In this document: piece after piece, positions 19,625-50,138 of the stretch | How the letters are laid out: each line of letters opens with the position of its first letter | Position numbering within the stretch: the first letter of the stretch is position 1 | Assembly (NCBI GenBank): GCA_029212745.1 | Contig: JARGOL010000002.1 | Location: forward strand, 330,133-394,132 | Reading direction: 5' to 3' | DNA: 64,000 nt | Origin: Alcanivoracaceae bacterium | GTDB taxonomy: Bacteria; Pseudomonadota; Gammaproteobacteria; Pseudomonadales; Alcanivoracaceae | Position numbers and translations under genes: made by a program | Notes under the pieces: model-generated | Seen by the model: only the letters and a program-made list of their open reading frames with translations | Told to the model about the DNA's origin: nothing | Database searches by the model: none

Positions 19625-22600
19625 TCATTCCGCCGTTACACGGGGCCGTTCGTCATCGCGCCAGTGGCGCAGGCTGTTCTGGTCAAACTTGATGCGGAAG
19701 TCCAGTACCACCCCCGCAACCCTGCTGTTGGCCTGGTCGAAGTCGGCGTCGTAGAAGCCGCGGAAGTTGTAACCCAGGCTGATCCATACATCCCGCACCG
19801 GGGAAACACCTACCATGACACCGTAGCTGTCATCACTGACGTTGCTGCGGTGTGAGGTCAGCAGGCTGGCCCGCGCCCCGATATCCCAGTGACGGCCGAT
19901 ATGGTAACGGTACTCGCCGGACACCAGGTCCGAGTAGCCACTGTAGCTGTCATCGCGGATGGCTTCCCGCACGTAACGGGCACCGTACATCAATGCCAGC
20001 TGGTGGTAATCGTTGGCAGAGAAGTTGCCGGTGAGATTGTTGACCAGTCGCTGTCCGTGTCGGCTGCCGAAGTCATCGTCCAGTCCGTCCAGTACCAGGC
20101 GGGTGCGATTCAGCATCCACCAGGGACTGGCGTCGGGGCGATGGGAAAGGCTCAGCTCCAGTGCCGTTTCCCATTCATCCGCGCCGCCGTGCAGCTTTTC
20201 ATCCCGGTGGGACAGGCGGCCAATAACGGTATTGGCGCCATCAAGGCGGTGGTGGAGGGCGCTCAGCAGGTTCCACTTGTCACTGATATCCGACTGGCGG
20301 TTCTCGATCCGGCCATTCCATTGCCAGACGCTGTCACGGTAACCAAGGCCGGCGGCCAGGGCTGTGTAGTCCTGCGAATCCGTGCCACTGGCGGGGTCGC
20401 GCCGGTCATCATCAAATCCCGGGTTACGTGTGCCGTCATGCAGCGTCTGGGCGCGGTCCATGGCCAGGTCAGCGCTCCAGCGCGCACTCAGTTGCAGGCG
20501 CTGGTACAGGCCGGCATGGCTGAACAGACGCGGGCCAAACTCGTCCTCGCTATGACCCACGTCTGACACCAGTGTGCCGCCTTTCCATGGCGTGATACGT
20601 GAGCCGACACGGCTTTCCAGGGCCCGGTATTCTTCGCCCCAGGCCAGTTCCTGGCTGGCGAACAGTGTGGCAATGGCATTGACGCGGTAATCGGCGCCCA
20701 GCGTCAGTTTGTTGGGATAGTCGTTGTTGCGCGCTTCGCCGCCTATAGCGGTTTCGCCGCTGGCGCGCAGTGTTACCCGCTTGTCGAGGAAAGACTGGCT
20801 GATGCCGGCCAGGGCGAGGTCCGAGTCATATTGCTCGGCACCAATCTGGTCCCGTGCGGTGCGCGCGCCACCCCATACCTTCAAGGTATCGCGGTGGTAA
20901 TTGAGCCGGCCTTCGACACTGTCTCTTTGCTGGTCAGCGCCCAGCAGTGTCTGGCGGCGGGCCTCTGATTCCACGGTGTAGTGTTCATGGATACGATAGC
21001 GCACTTCACCGCTGACCTGGCGGACACCGCTTTCACTGGCGGCCTGCTGGCCGATGCCGAAGTCAGCATCCTGCTGTTCGACACGCACGCGTCCGTCCAG
21101 ACGGCTGGACTGATAGAGGTATTCGCCCAACCATGCGTTACCGTCCACATCCGTGGTGGCATCTTCCTGGCGCTCGGTGCCAGCCATTTCTACACGCACT
21201 TCGTGGTTGTCATCCGGCTTCCAGGTGAGGTCGATGCCCTGCAGGTCTGCCTCACGACCTTCGGTGCCCTCGTGGATGGCCGTGACGCCAAGCTCCAGCG
21301 TTTTGCCGCTGTCGTGAATGGCGACGCGGCCGCCGCCACTGGTGTTCTCGCGCCCGTTGTCGAGTTCGTACTCGACAACAATGAAGACCGGATTGAAATC
21401 ACCATCCTGTGACAGCACAGGCTCACGGAAGAACAGGGTGCCGTCCGTATAGTCGATGCTGTAATCCAGGTAGCGGGCCCGGGATTCGGTCTTGACCAGC
21501 GTATTGTTGAAACGATCACGGACTTCAATGCGCACGGTTTCGCTGCCGGGCACGATATCACGGTCGCCCAGGCGGTAGAGGCCGCTGGTGCCGTCACCGC
21601 GAATGTCCCGGCGCACGTAAGCTTGTGCGGTCTGTGCTGCAAACAGGCTGGCACTGATGTTGTCCTCACGCAGCTCAGTCTTGAAGCCTGTCAGGGTACG
21701 CTGATACCGCGACAGTTCTGTAACGGTGAGGTCGGTGTCGTAGTCGCCAAACAGGGCATAAAAGTTGTCGCGTTCGATACGCAAGTACAGCTTCTCGCTG
21801 CTCGCGGCTTCCTGCTGGCGCTGTGCACTGTCACCATACAAGACATACCACTGGTTGGGGTCGAACTGCCCACCGAGTGGCGCATCATCCTCTTCCCGGC
21901 GTGAGTCATAGGCCATGGTCAGGAGCCATTCACCCTTTATCCGGCCACGGGCAAAAAATGCCGCTTCGCCATCGGTATAAGTGTCTTCCTCGGCGTCCGG
22001 CAGGGCACTGATGTTGTCCTCAAGCGTGGAGTGGCCGATGCTGCCCCTGGCGAAGCCCACCATGATCCAGTCGCGCAGGGCGGGCTTTACCTGTACTTCC
22101 AGCGTGTCCGAGGCAACATCGTCGTTGGCGCCAAGCTGGATGCGGTAAGTGCCGGCCGTGGCGACTGGCTCAAACCAGGCCACGCCGTCACTGTCGACCT
22201 GCACCACTGCACGTTGCGGGCTCAGGTCATCAGCCCTGCCTGCTATGCTCATGGGGGTAAGATCACCGTTCAGCAGGCGCAGTTCTACACGCGACTGTAT
22301 CTCCCGACCAGACATGTCCTCGATGGTCAGCGGCAGGCGGATGGGTGTCTTGCCGTCGGCAACATTCTCCACCGGTGTGGCGGCGCGGATGCGCTTGATG
22401 TCACTGGTGCGCGTCAGCGTGATGGCGCGACTGAAACGGGTGTTCCCGAACGGGCCGATGCCCTGCAGCTCCAATTGGTAGTCGCCGGTGTCAGGCAGTT
22501 CCAGGCCAAGCCAGGTGTAGTGGATCTGGCCCGCGTCCTTGTCCGGGATCTTCATGCCCAGGCGTTCAGCGGGCACTTCGTTACCGTTCAGCAGTAACCG

Positions 22601-25042
22601 GGGCTGCAGGCGCTCATCCAGGGTGCCGGTGACGCTGACCACGGGAATGCTGATATGCATGCCGTCAGACAGGTTGCGGAAGCCCGGCCCGGTATCCTGC
22701 ATGTTCGTGCTGGCCCGGGAGCCGGCGCGGTCAATGCCGCTGGCACCATTGACGACGGTGAGCTGGGCGTCACGAACGCGTTCGCGGGTGCGGATGGTGA
22801 TCTCCACCCGGCGATTCAGGGCACGTCCCTTTTCGGTATCGTTGCTGGCAATCGGTTCGCGCTGTCCACGTCCGCTGACGCGAAGGGCATCGGGGGGAAG
22901 ATCCAGGTACGTATTCAGTGCATTCGCCACCGACTGGGCGCGTGCTACGGCCAGCGTTTCGTTGTCATTGATAAGCCGGCCTTCGCGCCGGCGAACACGG
23001 CGTGAGTCCGTGTGCCCGACAATATCCAGTTCCACTGCCTGGAATGATTCAAGGAAACGTGCGGCCTCTCGAATGACCATCAGGTCGTTACTATTCAGCG
23101 CGGCGGACATGCTGGCGAATGTGGGACGCAGTGTCAGCGTGGCCTCATGCATTTCTGCGCTGACAAGCCCGAGTTCGTTCACGGATTGCACCGTGTGAAC
23201 ATCGCCGGCGGGTGTAATGCCTGACGTACGTACCAGTACCGTCTTGCGGTTGGCGCCACTGGCATTCGGGTCGAGCCGCAGGGACAGTGCCACTTCAGAA
23301 GCCCAGTAGCGGCCTTTCGGCTTCAGTGTCAGCCGATAGAAATTGTCGCTGTGGACAGCATCGCCGATCTCCCGGCCATCAAGCGCAGCGCTGCCGGGCA
23401 CCGGTGTCAGGGTGTCCGGGAGGAAAAAGTCCACGGTGACAGTCTTGAACTCGGTGTCGCCGTTACCCAGCGGCAGGCGTATCCGTACTTCGCCGTTTTC
23501 GATATCACTGAACAGCTGCTGCTGTATGTGTGATGTCACTTCCGGTTTCTCTTCCAGATAGAACGTCTCCCGCCACAGTGTTCCCCCCTGGAGGTCGACG
23601 AAGCGGGAGAGTGTATTGCCGGCGCTGCGCGAGTGGTCTGCGCATTGGCGTACCGTGTAGCGTGGGCCGAGCGAATCACTATCAAGCTGGAGCACATGGG
23701 TGCCGGGTTTGATGCCTTCCAGGTGCCATCGGCCCTGGTCATCGGTAATCACCGAGCTGCCATCTTCCAGATACAGGCGTGCGCCAGCCATACCGGCGCC
23801 AGCGCGGTCGCCGCACTGGCCGATGACGACCCGGCCCATGAGGAAAGCGCGGTCATTCAGGAATGCCTGCTCGACCGTTACGATGGCCTGCGCCGTGTTT
23901 GACGTAACGCCACCGTTGCTGGAGGCAACGGCTGTGTTGATGGCCTTGCCTGGCTGCGCCTGTACGGTGGCCTCGGCGACGTATTCGATGATGGCCTTTT
24001 CGCCAGCGGCGAGATTGCCTACGGGTACACTGACGCGCTTTTGCGTCAGCGCTGTGGGCTGCAGCGGTGTGCCATTGCGACGGATGGACTCCGCCTGGAT
24101 GCGGAACCCTGTCGGCAGAACGTCATCCAGTGAAATGCCTGTCAGGTCTGCGCTGCCGCGGTTGGCCACAAGGATGCGGTAACTGACCAGTTCACCCTGG
24201 CTGACGGTGTCGCGCAGTGCCTGCTTGGAGACGAACAGGGCGCCGGTGCCGGGTGCAGCGGCGGCACCGATTCGCGCCTGCTTGGAGCCCTGCTGGGCAT
24301 CGAATGCGGCAAGCGCCACGTAGTAGGGCGCCTGCGTCGTCAGCTGGTCATCCACATCGCCATAGTTCTGGTAGTTGATCTGGATGGTGCTGTTGGCCGG
24401 TATCGGCAGGCTGCCACCGTTTTGCAGGTAGCCGACGAAGGTGTTGCTGCCGGACGTGGTTTCTACCAGCGCAATCAGGTAATCGCTGGTAACGCCGGCG
24501 CTGGTGATGCTGGCACTGACGCCCACAATGCGGCGCCCGTCCGGTCGCGTGCCGAAAGCAGAGGCGGGAAGCTGCGGTTGTTCCAGAACAAGGAACAGTG
24601 CCTCGCCAGCAGAAAAATCGTTACTGGGTGTCAAGGTCACAAGCTGGTCGATGGCAATGGCAACGCCCTGCGCATCCGTGGGCGCGGGCAGGGCGCCGAG
24701 GATGGTCGGTGTCGTGCCACCAAGGCTGTCGGCGCTTGCGAAGTGGCTGCCATGCACGTTCAGTGCGGTTGTGCCACTGGGATCATATCGATAGAAACGC
24801 AGGTTTTCGTACCGCGTAACCAGCACGTTTGATTGGATGCTGCCGCCATTCCAGTTGAAGGTGGCGGGCGGCTGGATGATTTCGTAGGCTGCGCGGGCTG
24901 GCCCGGGCAGGGTCATGGCGGCCGCAAGAGCCAGCATCATGACAACATAAACGCTGACAGCATGACGCATACGCGCAAGGCATCCCACCGACGACCTGTC
25001 GGTGTTTTGCTGCGTGCGTGCGCGTGCCAGCCAGGTACTCAT
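19625..25042 (-). CDS. Giant outer-membrane protein: DUF11 + carboxypeptidase-regulatory-like + OmpA-like + large beta-barrel
   Basis: An 1805-residue protein. A signal peptide with a long N-region ends near residue 52 (GPARAAYE). Then come: an unrecognised beta-rich domain (about 53-265); a DUF11 repeat (about 270-393, with ALFVSKQALRDTVSQGELVS); a carboxypeptidase-regulatory/SpaA-like domain (about 400-455, ITDDQGRWHLEGIKPGTHVL); a beta domain; an OmpA-like peptidoglycan-binding domain (about 627-751, DIVGHTDSRR and ARAQSVANAL); one or two Ig-like domains; and about 800 residues of alternating amphipathic strands with aromatic ends, read as an outer-membrane barrel. The OmpA module precedes the barrel, the reverse of OmpA itself. 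A 15-residue charged tail follows the last strand. The ATG overlaps the preceding stop (TGATG). An internal ATG at 24970 would give a normal signal peptide. The exact role is unknown. Confidence 0.85.
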   Translation of the reverse strand: MSTWLARARTQQNTDRSSVGCLARMRHAVSVYVVMMLALAAAMTLPGPARAAYEIIQPPATFNWNGGSIQSNVLVTRYENLRFYRYDPSGTTALNVHGSHFASADSLGGTTPTILGALPAPTDAQGVAIAIDQLVTLTPSNDFSAGEALFLVLEQPQLPASAFGTRPDGRRIVGVSASITSAGVTSDYLIALVETTSGSNTFVGYLQNGGSLPIPANSTIQINYQNYGDVDDQLTTQAPYYVALAAFDAQQGSKQARIGAAAAPGTGALFVSKQALRDTVSQGELVSYRILVANRGSADLTGISLDDVLPTGFRIQAESIRRNGTPLQPTALTQKRVSVPVGNLAAGEKAIIEYVAEATVQAQPGKAINTAVASSNGGVTSNTAQAIVTVEQAFLNDRAFLMGRVVIGQCGDRAGAGMAGARLYLEDGSSVITDDQGRWHLEGIKPGTHVLQLDSDSLGPRYTVRQCADHSRSAGNTLSRFVDLQGGTLWRETFYLEEKPEVTSHIQQQLFSDIENGEVRIRLPLGNGDTEFKTVTVDFFLPDTLTPVPGSAALDGREIGDAVHSDNFYRLTLKPKGRYWASEVALSLRLDPNASGANRKTVLVRTSGITPAGDVHTVQSVNELGLVSAEMHEATLTLRPTFASMSAALNSNDLMVIREAARFLESFQAVELDIVGHTDSRRVRRREGRLINDNETLAVARAQSVANALNTYLDLPPDALRVSGRGQREPIASNDTEKGRALNRRVEITIRTRERVRDAQLTVVNGASGIDRAGSRASTNMQDTGPGFRNLSDGMHISIPVVSVTGTLDERLQPRLLLNGNEVPAERLGMKIPDKDAGQIHYTWLGLELPDTGDYQLELQGIGPFGNTRFSRAITLTRTSDIKRIRAATPVENVADGKTPIRLPLTIEDMSGREIQSRVELRLLNGDLTPMSIAGRADDLSPQRAVVQVDSDGVAWFEPVATAGTYRIQLGANDDVASDTLEVQVKPALRDWIMVGFARGSIGHSTLEDNISALPDAEEDTYTDGEAAFFARGRIKGEWLLTMAYDSRREEDDAPLGGQFDPNQWYVLYGDSAQRQQEAASSEKLYLRIERDNFYALFGDYDTDLTVTELSRYQRTLTGFKTELREDNISASLFAAQTAQAYVRRDIRGDGTSGLYRLGDRDIVPGSETVRIEVRDRFNNTLVKTESRARYLDYSIDYTDGTLFFREPVLSQDGDFNPVFIVVEYELDNGRENTSGGGRVAIHDSGKTLELGVTAIHEGTEGREADLQGIDLTWKPDDNHEVRVEMAGTERQEDATTDVDGNAWLGEYLYQSSRLDGRVRVEQQDADFGIGQQAASESGVRQVSGEVRYRIHEHYTVESEARRQTLLGADQQRDSVEGRLNYHRDTLKVWGGARTARDQIGAEQYDSDLALAGISQSFLDKRVTLRASGETAIGGEARNNDYPNKLTLGADYRVNAIATLFASQELAWGEEYRALESRVGSRITPWKGGTLVSDVGHSEDEFGPRLFSHAGLYQRLQLSARWSADLAMDRAQTLHDGTRNPGFDDDRRDPASGTDSQDYTALAAGLGYRDSVWQWNGRIENRQSDISDKWNLLSALHHRLDGANTVIGRLSHRDEKLHGGADEWETALELSLSHRPDASPWWMLNRTRLVLDGLDDDFGSRHGQRLVNNLTGNFSANDYHQLALMYGARYVREAIRDDSYSGYSDLVSGEYRYHIGRHWDIGARASLLTSHRSNVSDDSYGVMVGVSPVRDVWISLGYNFRGFYDADFDQANSRVAGVVLDFRIKFDQNSLRHWRDDERPRVTAE

Positions 25043-26187
25043 CAGTCCACAGTCACCTGGAACACCACGATGGCCGTTTCACCATCGGCAATGACGCCTG
25101 CAGCGCCAGAGGGGCTGTTAATCTGTAGTCCACCCTCGTCGAGGGGGAATGGTGACGTGCCCGCATCGGCCACGGGATTGCCATTCATCGTCGTGCTGTT
25201 GGCCACGTATTCGACAAATACGGGAATGGAATCTTCCAGTACTGCGCCTGTGAGCGTGCTGCCGGGGTTGCCCGATACGGTGAGCCTGTATTCCAGCAGT
25301 TCGCCGCTGTAGGCGCTGACGCCAGCGCTGGCAAAGGCGCCCCCATCAGTGACGTTGCGTACTTGCTTGATCAGGTTGCCGTCACTGGAAAGCACGGTAG
25401 TGGTGGCTGCGAGACCGTCGTTGTAGGAGATCGCGCTGCCGGAACTGTCGACGGCGCTTGTGGTACCGCTGAGTGACAGTGTGTGAACACCATTGGTGCC
25501 TGCGGCTGCAGGAGTGCCAGCGGTGATTGAAACGGTGACACTGGCCTGCTCGCCAAACTGGGTGCCAGCGGCAACAGTGCCGGCGCCGATGGCGGGTGCT
25601 CCCGCAGTTACTGCGGACAGTGTCAGGCGGGTTGGTGTCTCCGCCGTTGTGGTATTGCCCGTGGTAGAGGCCGGTGTACCAGCACTCAGGGTGGCAATTT
25701 CGTAGACGTAGTCGGAGCCGCCGATGTTGATGACGATCCGGTCCGTAACCATGAGATTGCTCTCTGAGCCAGCCGGTATGAACAGATTACCCGCAGCATC
25801 TGACGCCGCCGACGTGATTGATGCGCCGAGCACAATACTGCTGCTGGATACGCCCAGGCCCGTGGGCGCTGTGACGTTCGCGTCGGCACTGGCTGGCGCC
25901 AGGCTGTAGGTGTCACTGCCATTACTGGTGCTGTGCAGTGTGTAGACATAATTCGCCGTATCCGACGCAAACACGTCGATGTTGGCCTGGTCCACGCTGA
26001 ACACGGGTGCGCTGGGCAGTGTTGCCACCCGCACCTGTACAGCAGCGGTGACCTGGCCACCGGCGAAACTGAGTGTGGCCGCATTGTGAATCGTCGCCCC
26101 GCCGCCCACAGCTGCGTGGGCGCCAGAAACGACAAAAGCGAGACCTGCAAGGCTCGCCAGAATGCGACTCAATATTTTCCTCGACAT
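25042..26187 (-). CDS. Exported DUF11-like surface protein (381 aa), paralogue of the 429-aa neighbour
   Basis: A 381-residue exported protein. The signal peptide ends near residue 25 (VVSGAHAAVGG). The rest is Ser/Thr/Ala/Gly/Val-rich beta structure with no Cys after the leader. It aligns by eye with the 429-residue product: VYTLHSTSNGSDTYSL against VYTITGTANGEDTYDI, QVRNVTDGG against YVRNVTTGA, and similar final strands (IVVFQVTVD against YVLFRVTLD). The C-terminal third resembles a DUF11 domain. A very strong ribosome site (GGAGGAGG) lies just after a hairpin and T tract, and its stop overlaps the giant gene's start. Role unknown; probably a surface subunit or partner of the barrel. Confidence 0.8.
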   Translation of the reverse strand: MSRKILSRILASLAGLAFVVSGAHAAVGGGATIHNAATLSFAGGQVTAAVQVRVATLPSAPVFSVDQANIDVFASDTANYVYTLHSTSNGSDTYSLAPASADANVTAPTGLGVSSSSIVLGASITSAASDAAGNLFIPAGSESNLMVTDRIVINIGGSDYVYEIATLSAGTPASTTGNTTTAETPTRLTLSAVTAGAPAIGAGTVAAGTQFGEQASVTVSITAGTPAAAGTNGVHTLSLSGTTSAVDSSGSAISYNDGLAATTTVLSSDGNLIKQVRNVTDGGAFASAGVSAYSGELLEYRLTVSGNPGSTLTGAVLEDSIPVFVEYVANSTTMNGNPVADAGTSPFPLDEGGLQINSPSGAAGVIADGETAIVVFQVTVD

Positions 26188-26204
26188 ATCAACCTCCTCC
26201 TCGG

Positions 26205-26236
26205 AAAAAGGGGGAGCCGGGAGGACTCCGGCTCCC
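26205..26236 (-). terminator. Intercistronic terminator/attenuator inside the surface operon
   Basis: On the minus strand, 15 bases after the stop of the 429-residue gene, GGGAGCCGG and CCGGCTCCC form a perfect 9-bp GC-rich stem (26228-26236 with 26212-26220) with a 7-base loop. Two bases later comes TTTTT (complement of 26205-26209). This is intrinsic-terminator form, yet the next gene follows at once with a strong ribosome site, so partial read-through is the simplest reading. Confidence 0.75.
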
Positions 26237-26251
26237 TGAACCTGAGGATGA

Positions 26252-27541
26252 TTAGTCGAGTGTTACGCGGAACAGCACGTAGCTGGTCTGGCCACCAGTG
26301 AGTGAACCACCGGTGCCGCTTCCGTCCGGGCCGTCTGTGCCGGCACTGTCGCTACCGCCTGCGCCTGCATAGACGTATACCGTATTGCTGTTCACTTCGG
26401 CGCTATCACCATCACTGCCGCCTTCAGACGGATTGACGAATGCATCGGCACCGACCGGATCCAGCTGGATTGAGCCTGTGACCAGCGAGGTGAAGCCAGG
26501 CACCGGATCGCTGACGATGATGTTATCCGCCTGGGCAAAGCCGGCCGGGTTTTCCACCACCACCAGGTACTCAAGCGTGTCACCAGGGGTTGTGCCGTCT
26601 GCAGAACCCGGCTCTGCACTGACGCCGGAACTGTAGAAGTCGGTGCCTGCGCCGCCGATGGTGACGGTGATGTCAGCGGCGGCCGGGTTGTTGGCGCCGG
26701 TGGTGACATTACGCACGTACTTGGTGACATTGAGTGCCGCCCTAACCACGGTGACCGTCACGCCTGCGCCATCCACGGTGATACCGGGATCATCCTGTGA
26801 CGTGAACGTGGTGGTTGTGACGTGGGTGCCGGAGGTATTACCTGCAGTCACCGAATCGGTGGTGATGGTCACAGTGGCAGTACGCTGCTCGCCGATGATC
26901 AATGCCACGGCATAGGCGTTTGCAGTGCCCTGGTTGCCGCCGGTGAGCGTGTCACTGTCCACGGTGATGGTAACCACGTTCGTGGCTGCACCAGTGGACT
27001 CATCAATGGCCGTCACAGTAACCACTTCAGCGCTGCCGGTGGGGTCAAGGACGATGGTTTCGCCCACGGCAATACCGTTGACGATACCGTCGTTGGTGCC
27101 ATCGAAGGGCACGCTGATGACTGTGTCGCCGGCGGTTACCGCTGTGGCCACGGTGGTACCACCGAGGGTGACGTCAGTATCACCGCCGAAGACCGGTGCG
27201 CCGTCCATGGTGGTGTCCACGGAATTGTTGGTGATGTCATAGGTGTCTTCACCATTGGCGGTACCAGTGATCGTGTACACCAGGTTGTACGTGGTGGACT
27301 CGTTCGCAGGGTTGATGTCAGCCGGAACCGCGACCAGCGGTGCCGTGGGCACCAGGTTGACGGTGAAGGCGACGGATGCGGTGACCGGGGTCTGGGCATT
27401 GCCGCCCGTGTCGTCAAAGCTGACGGTCACCTCGTTGGTGATGGTGGTGTTTGCAGCCGTGCTTGCCAGCAGATTGCCGGACAGGGCGGCCAGGCCACCC
27501 AGTACAGCAACGCCAAGACTGCGCTTGATCAATGTTTTCAT
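26252..27541 (-). CDS. Exported DUF11-like surface protein (429 aa)
   Basis: A 429-residue exported protein. The signal peptide ends near residue 27 (GNLLASTAANTT). The mature chain is acidic and extremely rich in Thr, Val, Gly, Asp and Ala, with no Cys: typical of adhesin or fibre subunits made of Ig-like folds. The N-terminal half has ITNEVTVSFDDTGG and VYTITGTANGEDTYDI; the C-terminal half has a DUF11-like unit (GDTLEYLVVVENPAG, IIVSDPVPGFTSLV). A Gly/Ser/Asp linker precedes the last strand (TSYVLFRVTLD). It is a paralogue of the 381-residue gene downstream. Its codon bias creates long antisense open frames, which I discount. Confidence 0.82.
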   Translation of the reverse strand: MKTLIKRSLGVAVLGGLAALSGNLLASTAANTTITNEVTVSFDDTGGNAQTPVTASVAFTVNLVPTAPLVAVPADINPANESTTYNLVYTITGTANGEDTYDITNNSVDTTMDGAPVFGGDTDVTLGGTTVATAVTAGDTVISVPFDGTNDGIVNGIAVGETIVLDPTGSAEVVTVTAIDESTGAATNVVTITVDSDTLTGGNQGTANAYAVALIIGEQRTATVTITTDSVTAGNTSGTHVTTTTFTSQDDPGITVDGAGVTVTVVRAALNVTKYVRNVTTGANNPAAADITVTIGGAGTDFYSSGVSAEPGSADGTTPGDTLEYLVVVENPAGFAQADNIIVSDPVPGFTSLVTGSIQLDPVGADAFVNPSEGGSDGDSAEVNSNTVYVYAGAGGSDSAGTDGPDGSGTGGSLTGGQTSYVLFRVTLD

Positions 27542-27577: not shown

Positions 27578-27611
27578 CTCGCTGGACACGCGGCACCGCC
27601 GTGCCAGCGAG
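27578..27611 (-). repeat. Intercistronic hairpin between the first and second surface genes
   Basis: Arms CTCGCTGG (27578-27585) and CCAGCGAG (27604-27611) pair perfectly. Inside them CGGC (27591-27594) pairs with GCCG (27598-27601). No T-run follows directly on the minus strand, so an mRNA-processing or stability hairpin is more likely than a terminator. It lies in the 90-base gap after the 165-residue gene. Confidence 0.6.
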
Positions 27612-27631: not shown

Positions 27632-28129
27632 TTATTTCACGGTGGCGCTAAAGCCCACAGCGCCGTCGCTGCCGGCTGGAATTGTCGGGATCACCCAGCG
27701 GATGTTGGTGTAGCGCTCCGGCGGTGCGGCCTGTTCCTTGCCGGTGCCGGTGTCACGCCAGGTGAGAGATGCCGGCTGCTTGTAGGTCTGGCCGCCATCG
27801 ATGGAAAACAGGATCTGCGCACCGTCACCCCAGGCAGAGCCCGCCTGGTACAGCTGGGCGGGGTCAATCGGGTTATCCAGCTTCACGTTTACAGCGGCCT
27901 CGTCGCCGCTGTTGCTGTAGCTGAGGGTGTAGTGAACGGTATCGCCCGGGGCCACGGTGCTGGCCGGCTCCCGGCGGGTGCGGATCTGCCCATTTTCGTC
28001 AGCGGTGCGGATTTCACGCTCCGCGAGGATGGACATGCTCACCTGGGGGGCCGCCAACAGGCCTGATGACAGGCCCAAAAGTCCCATAAAAATCAGGGTA
28101 TTAACGGTATCAAGGTGAATTCTCTTCAT
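27632..28129 (-). CDS. Small exported DUF11-like protein (165 aa), first gene of the surface operon
   Basis: A 165-residue protein. The signal peptide ends near residue 27 (SSGLLAAPQV). One DUF11-like domain follows: PGDTVHYTLSYSNSGDEAAV, then VKLDNPIDPAQLYQAG and SIDGGQTYKQPASLTW, ending in GAVGFSATVK. The same order of motifs forms the last domain of the 503-residue protein upstream, so the two are related. The ATG at 28129 has AGGAG 6 bases upstream; the frame continues further but only through non-coding sequence. Likely periplasmic or surface-exposed. Confidence 0.82.
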   Translation of the reverse strand: MKRIHLDTVNTLIFMGLLGLSSGLLAAPQVSMSILAEREIRTADENGQIRTRREPASTVAPGDTVHYTLSYSNSGDEAAVNVKLDNPIDPAQLYQAGSAWGDGAQILFSIDGGQTYKQPASLTWRDTGTGKEQAAPPERYTNIRWVIPTIPAGSDGAVGFSATVK

Positions 28130-28535: not shown

Positions 28536-28538
28536 TTA
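28509..28538 (-). terminator. Probable terminator of the 503-residue gene
   Basis: On the minus strand, GATGA and TCATC pair around a 7-base loop right at the stop codon and are followed by CCTTTTTTG. Outer AAA/TTT pairing lengthens the stem with one bulge. The stem is short, so efficiency may be modest, but it separates the 503-residue gene from the operon behind it. Confidence 0.55.
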
Positions 28539-30047
28539 GCGGAGTACGGTGTCGTACTCCAGCTGGAAGGAGGCGCCGTTGGCGTTCATGGTGCCGGTCA
28601 TTGGCACGCGAAAGTGGGTGACATTGGCGTCATAGCCGGCCGGGGCGCCGCCGCCGCCAGACATGGGGGTGTAAGTGTAGGTGATACCGCCGTCGTCCGA
28701 GTAGGACGGAGTGCCCAGGGTCAGTCCGCTGGGCGTGGCGCCGTCGGTAAAACGGAACGGGGTGGCGGCGCCAAAAGTGTTGATGGCAAACGCCACGAAT
28801 TGGGGCAGCTGGTCTTCAACGGCGACGTTGGTGGCGGCAACTGTGGCGATGTTGCTGATCGACACGGTGAAGCGTACAGCGCTGCCGGGGTCAACGTTGG
28901 CGGACGAAGACACCTTGGTTACAGTCAGCTCGGGCGCCGGCAGCACCTGGACAACGGCGCTGCTGCTGTCATTGCTGGCGTCATTGTCGGCCTCAGCGCT
29001 GGCGCTGATGGTGGCGGTGTTGGTGGTGTTGATGGCCAGTGGCACGTTCAGGGCCAGTGCCGTGATGGTCAGCGTCTCGCTGGTCTGCGCCGGTAGCGAC
29101 GCCAGCTGCCACTGGTCCGGCACCGAGTCCGCATCCGTGTCGACAAAACTGCCCGCAGATACGGTGTGACTGAGGTAGGTGAATTGAGCGGGGAGCTGGT
29201 CATCCACGGTAATACTGCTGAAATCATCGAAGAGAAGGTTTTCCAGCAAGATGGTATAGGTCACTGTATTGCCTGCCTGCACAGTGGCAGCACTGGCACT
29301 CTTGCTGATCGCCATGTCCGGCGGGAAAAGCACTGACGCGCCGCCGGGGCCGCCCATGTTGTCGTCCAGCTGGTTGGGAATATTGGTGCCGTTCGACGAC
29401 GAGATATGAAAACCCACGTTGGCTGGCTGGGACAGGCCCAGTGCTGTCCAGGCAATGGCGATCTCCATTTCGGTGCCGGTGCTGGCGCCGCCCTTGGCCT
29501 TGTACTGCTGCACGCAGCTGTGGTTGAACAACGGACCAGGCATGTCATACCCATCCGCATTGCCGGTGTTCGGGTCTGTGAGCGAGTCGCCGGTGCTGTT
29601 GTTGACCGCATTGTAGCGGCAGATCTCCACCGTGGTGTCGCGGTTACTGCCTTGCCAGGACACGTGCACCACCGGTTCGTTGTCTTCCTGTGTGCTGCTG
29701 TTATTGGTGTCCAGGTAGAACCACCAGTCGGTGGCGTTGCTGAGGCTGGCGTAGCGGCCCACGAACAAATAGATGTTGTTGGTATCCCAGGTGAATGAAA
29801 AGGTCTTCAGGTCACGGCCGGTGCTCTGTACCTGGTAGTCGAGATCGCAGCCGCCGCTGCCCGGGGCGATGGTGCCTTCGCAGTCGGCGCTGAACTGGCC
29901 CGGGTTGGTAAGAATATTGGTCGGCGAGGTCCAGTCACTGATATTCCCGTCGATGGTAATTGTGCGACTGATCAATGCGCCATGGGCGGCACCGAACAGG
30001 GTCAGCAACAGCAGTGCCGTGAGGATCTGGTGTGTCAGGCGCCGCAT
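28536..30047 (-). CDS. Exported protein with N-terminal CBM9-like region and two DUF11 domains (503 aa)
   Basis: A 503-residue exported protein. The signal peptide ends near residue 23 (FGAAHGALIS). The N-terminal region (about 25-235) opens with TITIDGNISDW, a common start of family-9-like carbohydrate-binding domains. It has aromatic strands (TDWWFYLDTNN) and a few Cys that may form disulphides. Two DUF11 domains follow (about 243-375 and 380-503): ISKSASAATVQAGNTVTYT and VTKVSSSANVDPGSAVRFT. The last one is related to the 165-residue protein. It is transcribed separately, between the mdh terminator and its own weak terminator. A ligand-binding surface or fibre-tip role is a guess. Confidence 0.82.
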   Translation of the reverse strand: MRRLTHQILTALLLLTLFGAAHGALISRTITIDGNISDWTSPTNILTNPGQFSADCEGTIAPGSGGCDLDYQVQSTGRDLKTFSFTWDTNNIYLFVGRYASLSNATDWWFYLDTNNSSTQEDNEPVVHVSWQGSNRDTTVEICRYNAVNNSTGDSLTDPNTGNADGYDMPGPLFNHSCVQQYKAKGGASTGTEMEIAIAWTALGLSQPANVGFHISSSNGTNIPNQLDDNMGGPGGASVLFPPDMAISKSASAATVQAGNTVTYTILLENLLFDDFSSITVDDQLPAQFTYLSHTVSAGSFVDTDADSVPDQWQLASLPAQTSETLTITALALNVPLAINTTNTATISASAEADNDASNDSSSAVVQVLPAPELTVTKVSSSANVDPGSAVRFTVSISNIATVAATNVAVEDQLPQFVAFAINTFGAATPFRFTDGATPSGLTLGTPSYSDDGGITYTYTPMSGGGGAPAGYDANVTHFRVPMTGTMNANGASFQLEYDTVLR

Positions 30048-30140: not shown

Positions 30141-30175
30141 ATAAAAAAAGCGCCCGGCGGTGCGGGCGCTTTCTT
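30141..30175 (-). terminator. Intrinsic terminator of mdh
   Basis: A perfect 10-bp stem, AAAGCGCCCG / CGGGCGCTTT (30147-30156 and 30163-30172), has a 6-base loop. The run of seven A (30143-30149) gives the U tract on the minus strand. It lies 20 bases past the mdh stop and upstream of the 503-residue gene. Confidence 0.9.
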
Positions 30176-50107: not shown

Positions 50108-50138
50108 CAAAAAGACCCGGCGCTGCCGGGTTTTTTTG
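50108..50138 (+). terminator. Intrinsic terminator of glcB
   Basis: ACCCGGC (50115-50121) and GCCGGGT (50125-50131) form a 7-bp stem with a GCT loop, and T residues run to 50137. A upstream and T downstream extend the stem, so it may also act in reverse. It is 20-30 bases past the glcB stop. Confidence 0.92.

Follow-up and report, generated by a model that had tools for sequence, protein, structure and literature searches.

Two stem-loops of the messenger RNA, one between the second and third genes of a four-gene operon (g2 and g3) and the other at the start of the fourth gene (g4), keep their positions among the relatives of an Alcanivoracaceae genome, and with a probability of roughly 0.55 we propose that together they lower expression stepwise from small exported subunits to a giant barrel. 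Operons for surface structures must yield many subunits for each export or anchor protein. A first-pass annotation of the window (the whole stretch of DNA analysed, 64,000 nucleotides) had suggested that a hairpin in this operon sets such a ratio; this idea survives here, and its mechanism and place shift, to the start of g4. From the presence, position and conservation of the two stem-loops, their compensatory changes, the sense-strand bias and the strengths of the translation starts, all of which are observed, we infer the consequences for expression; the roles of the proteins are likewise predicted. If the proposal is right, an operon family found in two proteobacterial classes would meet its subunit:barrel ratio through mRNA structures of which the shape is kept and the sequence is not.

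The operon encodes predicted exported subunits and a predicted giant barrel

Kinship comparison placed the source genome in the Alcanivoracaceae, its named relatives being Alcanivorax and Alcanivoracaceae. Here, four consecutive genes are read from the minus strand. The operon's first gene, g1 (27632..28129), encodes a DUF11-type repeat protein of 165 aa with a signal peptide, g2 (26252..27541) a putative exported, beta-rich subunit of 429 aa, and g3 (25042..26187) an exported protein of 381 aa with immunoglobulin-like beta domains and a DUF11-type repeat near its C-terminus; g2 and g3 are paralogues (in tblastn searches each recovers the other). The last gene, g4 (19625..25042), encodes a giant putative outer-membrane protein of 1805 aa which combines DUF11-type repeats, a carboxypeptidase-regulatory-like stretch and an OmpA domain with a C-terminal predicted barrel. 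This barrel covers the last 811 residues, with about 30 strands (mean pLDDT 70.5, pTM 0.50) and weak Foldseek matches to SlpA, TonB-dependent receptors and the type 9 translocon plug complex. The model of g3 consists of immunoglobulin-like beta domains (mean pLDDT 85.7) and found generic fold matches only. A search of PDB sequences returned nothing useful for g3 and the OmpA domain only for g4, and no relative was found in the viral contigs searched with g3. Since the labels "subunit" for g2 and g3 and "barrel" for g4 rest on domain matches and on the predicted structures of g3 and g4, we regard them as fair guesses.

Orthologues of g3 occur in 11 of 46 genomes of the family, its own included, and beyond the family in one more genome of the order and one of the class; the phylum sample added 15 Mariprofundaceae-type genomes (Zetaproteobacteria), and the named-genome collection holds 12 g3 loci, with Alcanivorax sp. 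DP30 and Alcanivorax limicola JB21 among the carriers of the operon. The order g1-g4 was unchanged in the ten other operon loci examined, one contig being cut. At L058 and L107, which belong to one Mariprofundaceae genome judging by their identical junction, three tandem putative subunit genes precede the giant gene, with an extra hairpin between the second and the third. A limited, word-based literature search found no report on the operon g1-g4 or on RNA structure within it.

The g2-g3 hairpin is conserved in structure and position

In the window the gap between g2 and g3 (26251-26188, minus strand) measures 64 nt. Its stem-loop begins 15 nt past the g2 stop and occupies 26212..26236; read in the direction of the genes (26236-26212) it is GGGAGCCGG-AGTCCTC-CCGGCTCCC, a perfect stem of 9 bp, of which 8 pairs are G-C, with a 7-nt loop. 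Two nucleotides past the stem (CC, 26211-26210) there is a TTTTT tract (26205..26209), followed by CCGAGGAGGAGG, which includes the g3 Shine-Dalgarno sequence GGAGGAGG (26193..26200), the operon's strongest; the g3 ATG lies at 26187. The first-pass annotation had read a perfect 9-bp GC stem, TTTTT two bases on and a strong ribosome site for the 381-residue gene, and the sequence is as it claimed.

We assessed how far this hairpin exceeds chance in its own genome. It is the strongest among 14 terminator-like sites in 13.1 kb (shuffled sequences gave 9.1 +/- 3.3 at this lax threshold), and the 101-nt stretch that holds it has a folding energy of -41.3 kcal/mol (z -3.57), which was matched by none of 200 shuffles. 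The 64-nt gap alone is marginal: its best 36-nt window was reached by 12 of 200 shuffles and the energy of the whole gap by 22 of 500. Moreover, a 464-kb sample of the genome has 94 gaps of 40-150 nt between same-strand genes, and 21 of these, g2-g3 included, contain a hairpin of -20.4 kcal/mol or lower. The feature of the g2-g3 hairpin that goes beyond chance is its conservation in relatives; alone, it is marginal in a GC-rich genome. A mobile or repeated palindrome was rejected, as the genome has a single exact copy of the core GCCGGAGTCCTCCCGGC and four other places that match it with 2 mismatches, and an Rfam scan of the window and 13 loci matched no family.

In nearly all relatives a stem-loop stands at the same place, in sequences that are largely unrelated. 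Set against 500 dinucleotide shuffles each, 23 of 26 g2-g3 junctions are more stable than at least 95% of them; the others are L058 (49/500), L059 (29/500) and L088 (47/500). At L059 the gap is 15 nt and is without the hairpin; most gaps measure 56-147 nt. Compensatory pairs are seen within close groups, and the four members of the window's own group share the loop AGTCCTC and differ at two stem pairs, each changed on both sides. The 26 loci omit L087, L094, L101, L102, L104 and L108 (junctions of genomes already counted), L093 (which repeats the junction of L103), L091 (near a contig end) and L095, L096 and L106; ambiguous bases of L103 were folded as A. The genomes are related, so that counts of junctions and of g4 loci are non-independent, and the Zetaproteobacterial L097, L099 and L100 are near-identical.

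The loop AGTCCTC is identical in four genomes (the window and L033-L035), GTCCTC is present in L039 and L040, and the other loops differ. By eye, this loop with the next stem base (26217-26230 in the window; also in L033-L035) resembles the 16S anti-Shine-Dalgarno sequence. As a lead, the loop could pair with the g3 Shine-Dalgarno sequence downstream as a pseudoknot, the complementarity being judged by eye. The 147-nt junction of L105 (genome G822) contains two successive, very stable stem-loops, with a z of -8.1 for the whole junction.

The first-pass annotation had also counted on an earlier intercistronic hairpin, in the g1-g2 gap (27578..27611, minus strand). It is present locally, at -22.5 kcal/mol, which 0 of 200 shuffles reached, but for whole g1-g2 junctions 8 of 10 genomes showed no excess of structure over shuffles. 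We thus rejected this hairpin, which is not generally conserved, as a third conserved element.

The T-run is not conserved with the g2-g3 hairpin

A terminator-like site was found in 6 of the 26 g2-g3 junctions, with at least 5 T in four of them: the window (5 T after CC), L033 (7 T), L034 (6 T), L035 (6 T), L060 (4 T) and L092 (4 T). The remaining 20 junctions, that of L041 for instance, are without one. The hairpin is present in nearly all junctions and the T-run in six; conservation therefore covers the structure but not the T-run. Between same-strand genes the 464-kb sample has 20 terminator-like sites, and in 14 of these 6-8 T follow the stem without a spacer; the g2-g3 site, with its CC spacer and 5 T, looks like a poor terminator by this genome's standard. 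Two local terminators that may serve as a yardstick, at 30150-30169 and 50116-50130, have a stem followed immediately by 7 T.

The hairpin had originally been taken to work mainly as a transcription terminator. This was not supported across the junctions, and we rejected termination as its conserved function: it is unlikely, because the T-run is not kept and the window's tract is weaker than usual. A caution follows for similar cases, as a terminator-like hairpin seen in one genome need not terminate when relatives are mostly without the T-run.

A long stem-loop is conserved at the start of g4

The second stem-loop lies at 24951..25036 (minus strand), where a long unbranched helix of 32 bp is predicted over codons 3-31 of g4; its apical stem (24986..25004) is a perfect 7 bp, CACCGAC-AGGTC-GTCGGTG. 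The position is kept in Gamma- and Zetaproteobacteria. Of 24 loci, 23 fold the first 108 nt of g4 into a single stem-loop, without branches, of 21-43 bp, and L059 has 17 bp. The minimum free energy of these 108 nt is lower than in 95% of 1000 synonymous-codon shuffles at 22 of the loci and lower than in 99% at 20; the two that miss 5% are L036 (143/1000) and L086 (51/1000). In such shuffles the protein is kept and synonymous codons of the same gene are exchanged, which presumes that the upstream g4 start is real. A z of -2.5 or lower was obtained for 20 of the 24 g4 loci and for 1 of 377 genes of this genome (background mean 0.12, sd 1.03). The gene caller put the g4 start at 24940 and not at 25042, and its calls served only for the background figures of this genome. 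We counted 24 of 25 loci, leaving out L088, where the next start is 150 nt away, and representing L058 by L107 of the same genome; by eye, the 24 amount to perhaps eight to ten independent groups, and the statistics ignore kinship.

The window's own copy is weak: 42 of 1000 synonymous shuffles equalled it (z -1.8), 18 of 145 other windows of the gene are equally stable, and the dinucleotide test gave a z of -1.39. Because this copy is weak and its helix is interrupted, what we say of the g4 stem in this genome is drawn from relatives. In five Zetaproteobacterial stems 96.4% of cells are paired and 7 of 33 pairs are changed on both sides; none of 500 shuffles paired as highly, and slid versions paired at 33-53%. 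In 19 of 24 loci the sense strand folds to a lower energy than the antisense strand; the mean difference is -8.5 kcal/mol, compared with +0.5 in 264 control windows, and this bias favours a structure of the mRNA over a palindrome of the DNA.

The g4 frame is open through the stem in all 24 loci, with the start codon at a similar place, and differences between relatives at codon positions 1, 2 and 3 number 67, 60 and 83. The stretch may be either a poorly constrained, translated N-terminal extension or a leader with translation starting further in; since its coding signal is weak, the true start of g4 could lie downstream. Both possibilities place the structure between g3 and the body of g4. 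In L039 and L040 the early stem ends in GGG(G)TTTT(T), which is terminator-like and falls within codons 1-20 of g4.

The translation starts suggest that the step lies at g4

Predicted Shine-Dalgarno pairing has medians of -6.0 kcal/mol for g2 (10 loci), -9.2 for g3 (14 loci) and -3.2 for g4 (25 loci), and the g4 site of the window is weak as well (-3.8 kcal/mol). Here the g3 stop and the g4 start overlap in TGATG, and in 22 of 24 loci g4 starts at most 24 nt behind the g3 stop (29 nt in L059, 32 nt in L060). The pair g3-g4 thus has the overlap or very short gap and the weak second start of a coupled pair.

The first-pass annotation had predicted less product from the 381-residue and giant genes than from the first two. 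An expression step from the subunit genes to the giant barrel gene would be the most economical reading, and to this extent the prediction is supported. Against the predicted step at g3 stands the Shine-Dalgarno sequence of g3, the strongest of the four genes, which argues against less g3 than g2 product; the clearer step is at g4, whose early stem-loop the first-pass annotation had not noted.

A proposed stepwise model and its alternatives

In the model that we propose, the g2-g3 stem-loop would block 3'-to-5' exonucleases, and so protect the g1-g2 mRNA, and/or keep ribosomes leaving g2 from drifting on, and g3 would restart from its own strong Shine-Dalgarno sequence. In the window's subclade the T-run may make the hairpin a leaky intrinsic terminator as well, a weak one in this genome. 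The g4 stem-loop, made of roughly the first 90 nt of the gene, stands at or just past a start codon that in most genomes is 10-18 nt or less behind the g3 stop and is without a Shine-Dalgarno sequence, and for these reasons g4 would be translated weakly, by ribosomes finishing g3. The poorly translated g4 mRNA would decay first, and the net effect would be many subunits per giant barrel. Most likely, the g4 stem would act as the main post-transcriptional brake that keeps the giant barrel scarce. For the g2-g3 hairpin, an intercistronic decay barrier or a translation insulator fits better than a terminator: the junction offers both the stable, conserved hairpin of a protective stem-loop, which needs no U-tract, and a post-stop structure in a gap of at least 25 nt. 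Several points speak against the two-stem model: any translation of g4 would itself unfold the g4 stem as ribosomes pass through it, the window's own copies are weak (22/500 for g2-g3, 42/1000 for g4), the g3 Shine-Dalgarno sequence is strong, the true start of g4 could lie past the stem, and the loci compared are related.

It is quite possible, although we would not put it at even odds, that the g2-g3 hairpin belongs to the ordinary ribosome termination structures, as a post-stop insulator with no special role in the ratio, and that the g4 stem is a separate matter. Excerpts of PMC7518266 report such structures after 18-65% of genes, with enrichment at gaps of at least 25 nt; the lengths of most g2-g3 gaps agree with this, as does the equally stable hairpin in 21 of 94 gaps of this genome. 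The same excerpts describe depletion at overlaps and at gaps below 25 nt, yet it is the g3-g4 junction that carries the longest stem, so g4 is left unexplained. The original proposal, a partial intrinsic terminator with the ratio set by transcription, seems to us unlikely. Stem, T-tract and position all fit it in the window, L033, L034 and L035 have textbook terminators at g2-g3 with no spacer and 6-7 T, and a simple sigma-70 scan of g2-g3 on the same strand found no promoter; this last is weak evidence, because none was found before g1 either. These points are set against a hairpin that is kept where the T-run is not, and against a tract weaker than most terminators of this genome. In addition, a strong terminator right before g3 would silence g4 too unless a promoter followed.

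The g4 stem allows further readings. Its helices of 21-43 bp are nearly continuous, and excerpts of the literature document RNase III sites inside mRNAs, so the stem might be a processing site which splits the g1-g3 mRNA from the g4 mRNA, with or without translational control; we find this doubtful, since bulges and loops vary among genomes and the window's helix is interrupted. A broader suggestion, which we hold tentatively and below an even chance, is that the 5' end of g4 is a dedicated, ancient cis-acting RNA element of Gamma- and Zetaproteobacteria, its structure kept over sequence, that would meter the export or anchor barrel against the subunits through coupled translation and/or RNase III; the N-terminal extension may mainly carry the stem. 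We consider it very improbable that the palindromes are no RNA structures at all, and either serve a regulator or recombinase as DNA sites or simply follow from constraints on protein or composition. Perfect palindromic stems in GC-rich DNA, and window copies that are just marginally beyond shuffles, would suit that explanation, but the sequence turns over while the pairing stays, the g4 pairing exceeds synonymous shuffles, and G-U pairs stabilise the sense strand more in 19 of 24 g4 loci.

Comparison with known operon hairpins

Differential operon decay offers the closest parallels to the two-stem model. According to excerpts of PMC5927463, hairpins without a U-tract keep 3' exonucleases off the segments upstream of them, and such barriers are in E. 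coli often part of the coding sequence of the next gene, the less stable one; in menBCE, two successive hairpins produce a stepwise fall. With the 3' protective stem-loops of malE-malF, puf and menBCE, as these excerpts present them, the g2-g3 and g4 structures share the stable junction hairpin that needs no U-tract, the expected graded fall after successive hairpins and the barrier within the start of a downstream, presumably unstable gene. The g4 stem differs in being longer than a simple barrier requires and in standing at a start without a Shine-Dalgarno sequence.

The ribosome termination structures of PMC7518266, which in its excerpts reduce re-initiation, resemble g2-g3 in the stable structure right past a stop and the gap above 25 nt, and part from g3-g4, where the junction is short or overlapping. 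Also well known is translational coupling in which the second start carries an inhibitory structure (PMC12548453, a review, in part); g3-g4 is like it in its close or overlapping stop and start, its weak start and the structure near the downstream start. Unlike there, nearly all of the g4 stem comes after the start codon, in coding sequence. Intrinsic (Rho-independent) terminators used as operon attenuators share the GC stem and T-run before the next gene with the window, L033, L034 and L035, whereas 20 of 26 g2-g3 junctions lack the T-run and the window has its CC spacer and 5 T. The processing of papBA pilin mRNA (excerpts of PMC5927463) is like g1-g4 in having a junction hairpin in a surface-structure operon with unequal products, but there the downstream gene gains stability once RNase E has cut, while here the giant downstream gene would be expected to be expressed at a low level, and the g1-g4 proteins match no pilin family. 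The parallel with many pilus operons drawn in the earlier annotation is one of layout only: Pfam and NCBIfam searches with g1-g4 gave DUF11-type, OmpA and CarboxypepD_reg matches only, with no chaperone, usher or pilin family. If the two-stem model is true, the relatives would form a natural series in which to study how protein ratios are set by hairpins between genes and by stems early in the coding sequence.

The mix of domains in g4, its predicted barrel of about 30 strands and the two paralogous beta-domain subunits have the look of a so far undescribed outer-membrane system for export or anchoring. On the same strand, the stretch immediately upstream (28536-30047) encodes another DUF11 protein, of 503 aa, with a weak match to an isopeptide-forming fimbrial domain.
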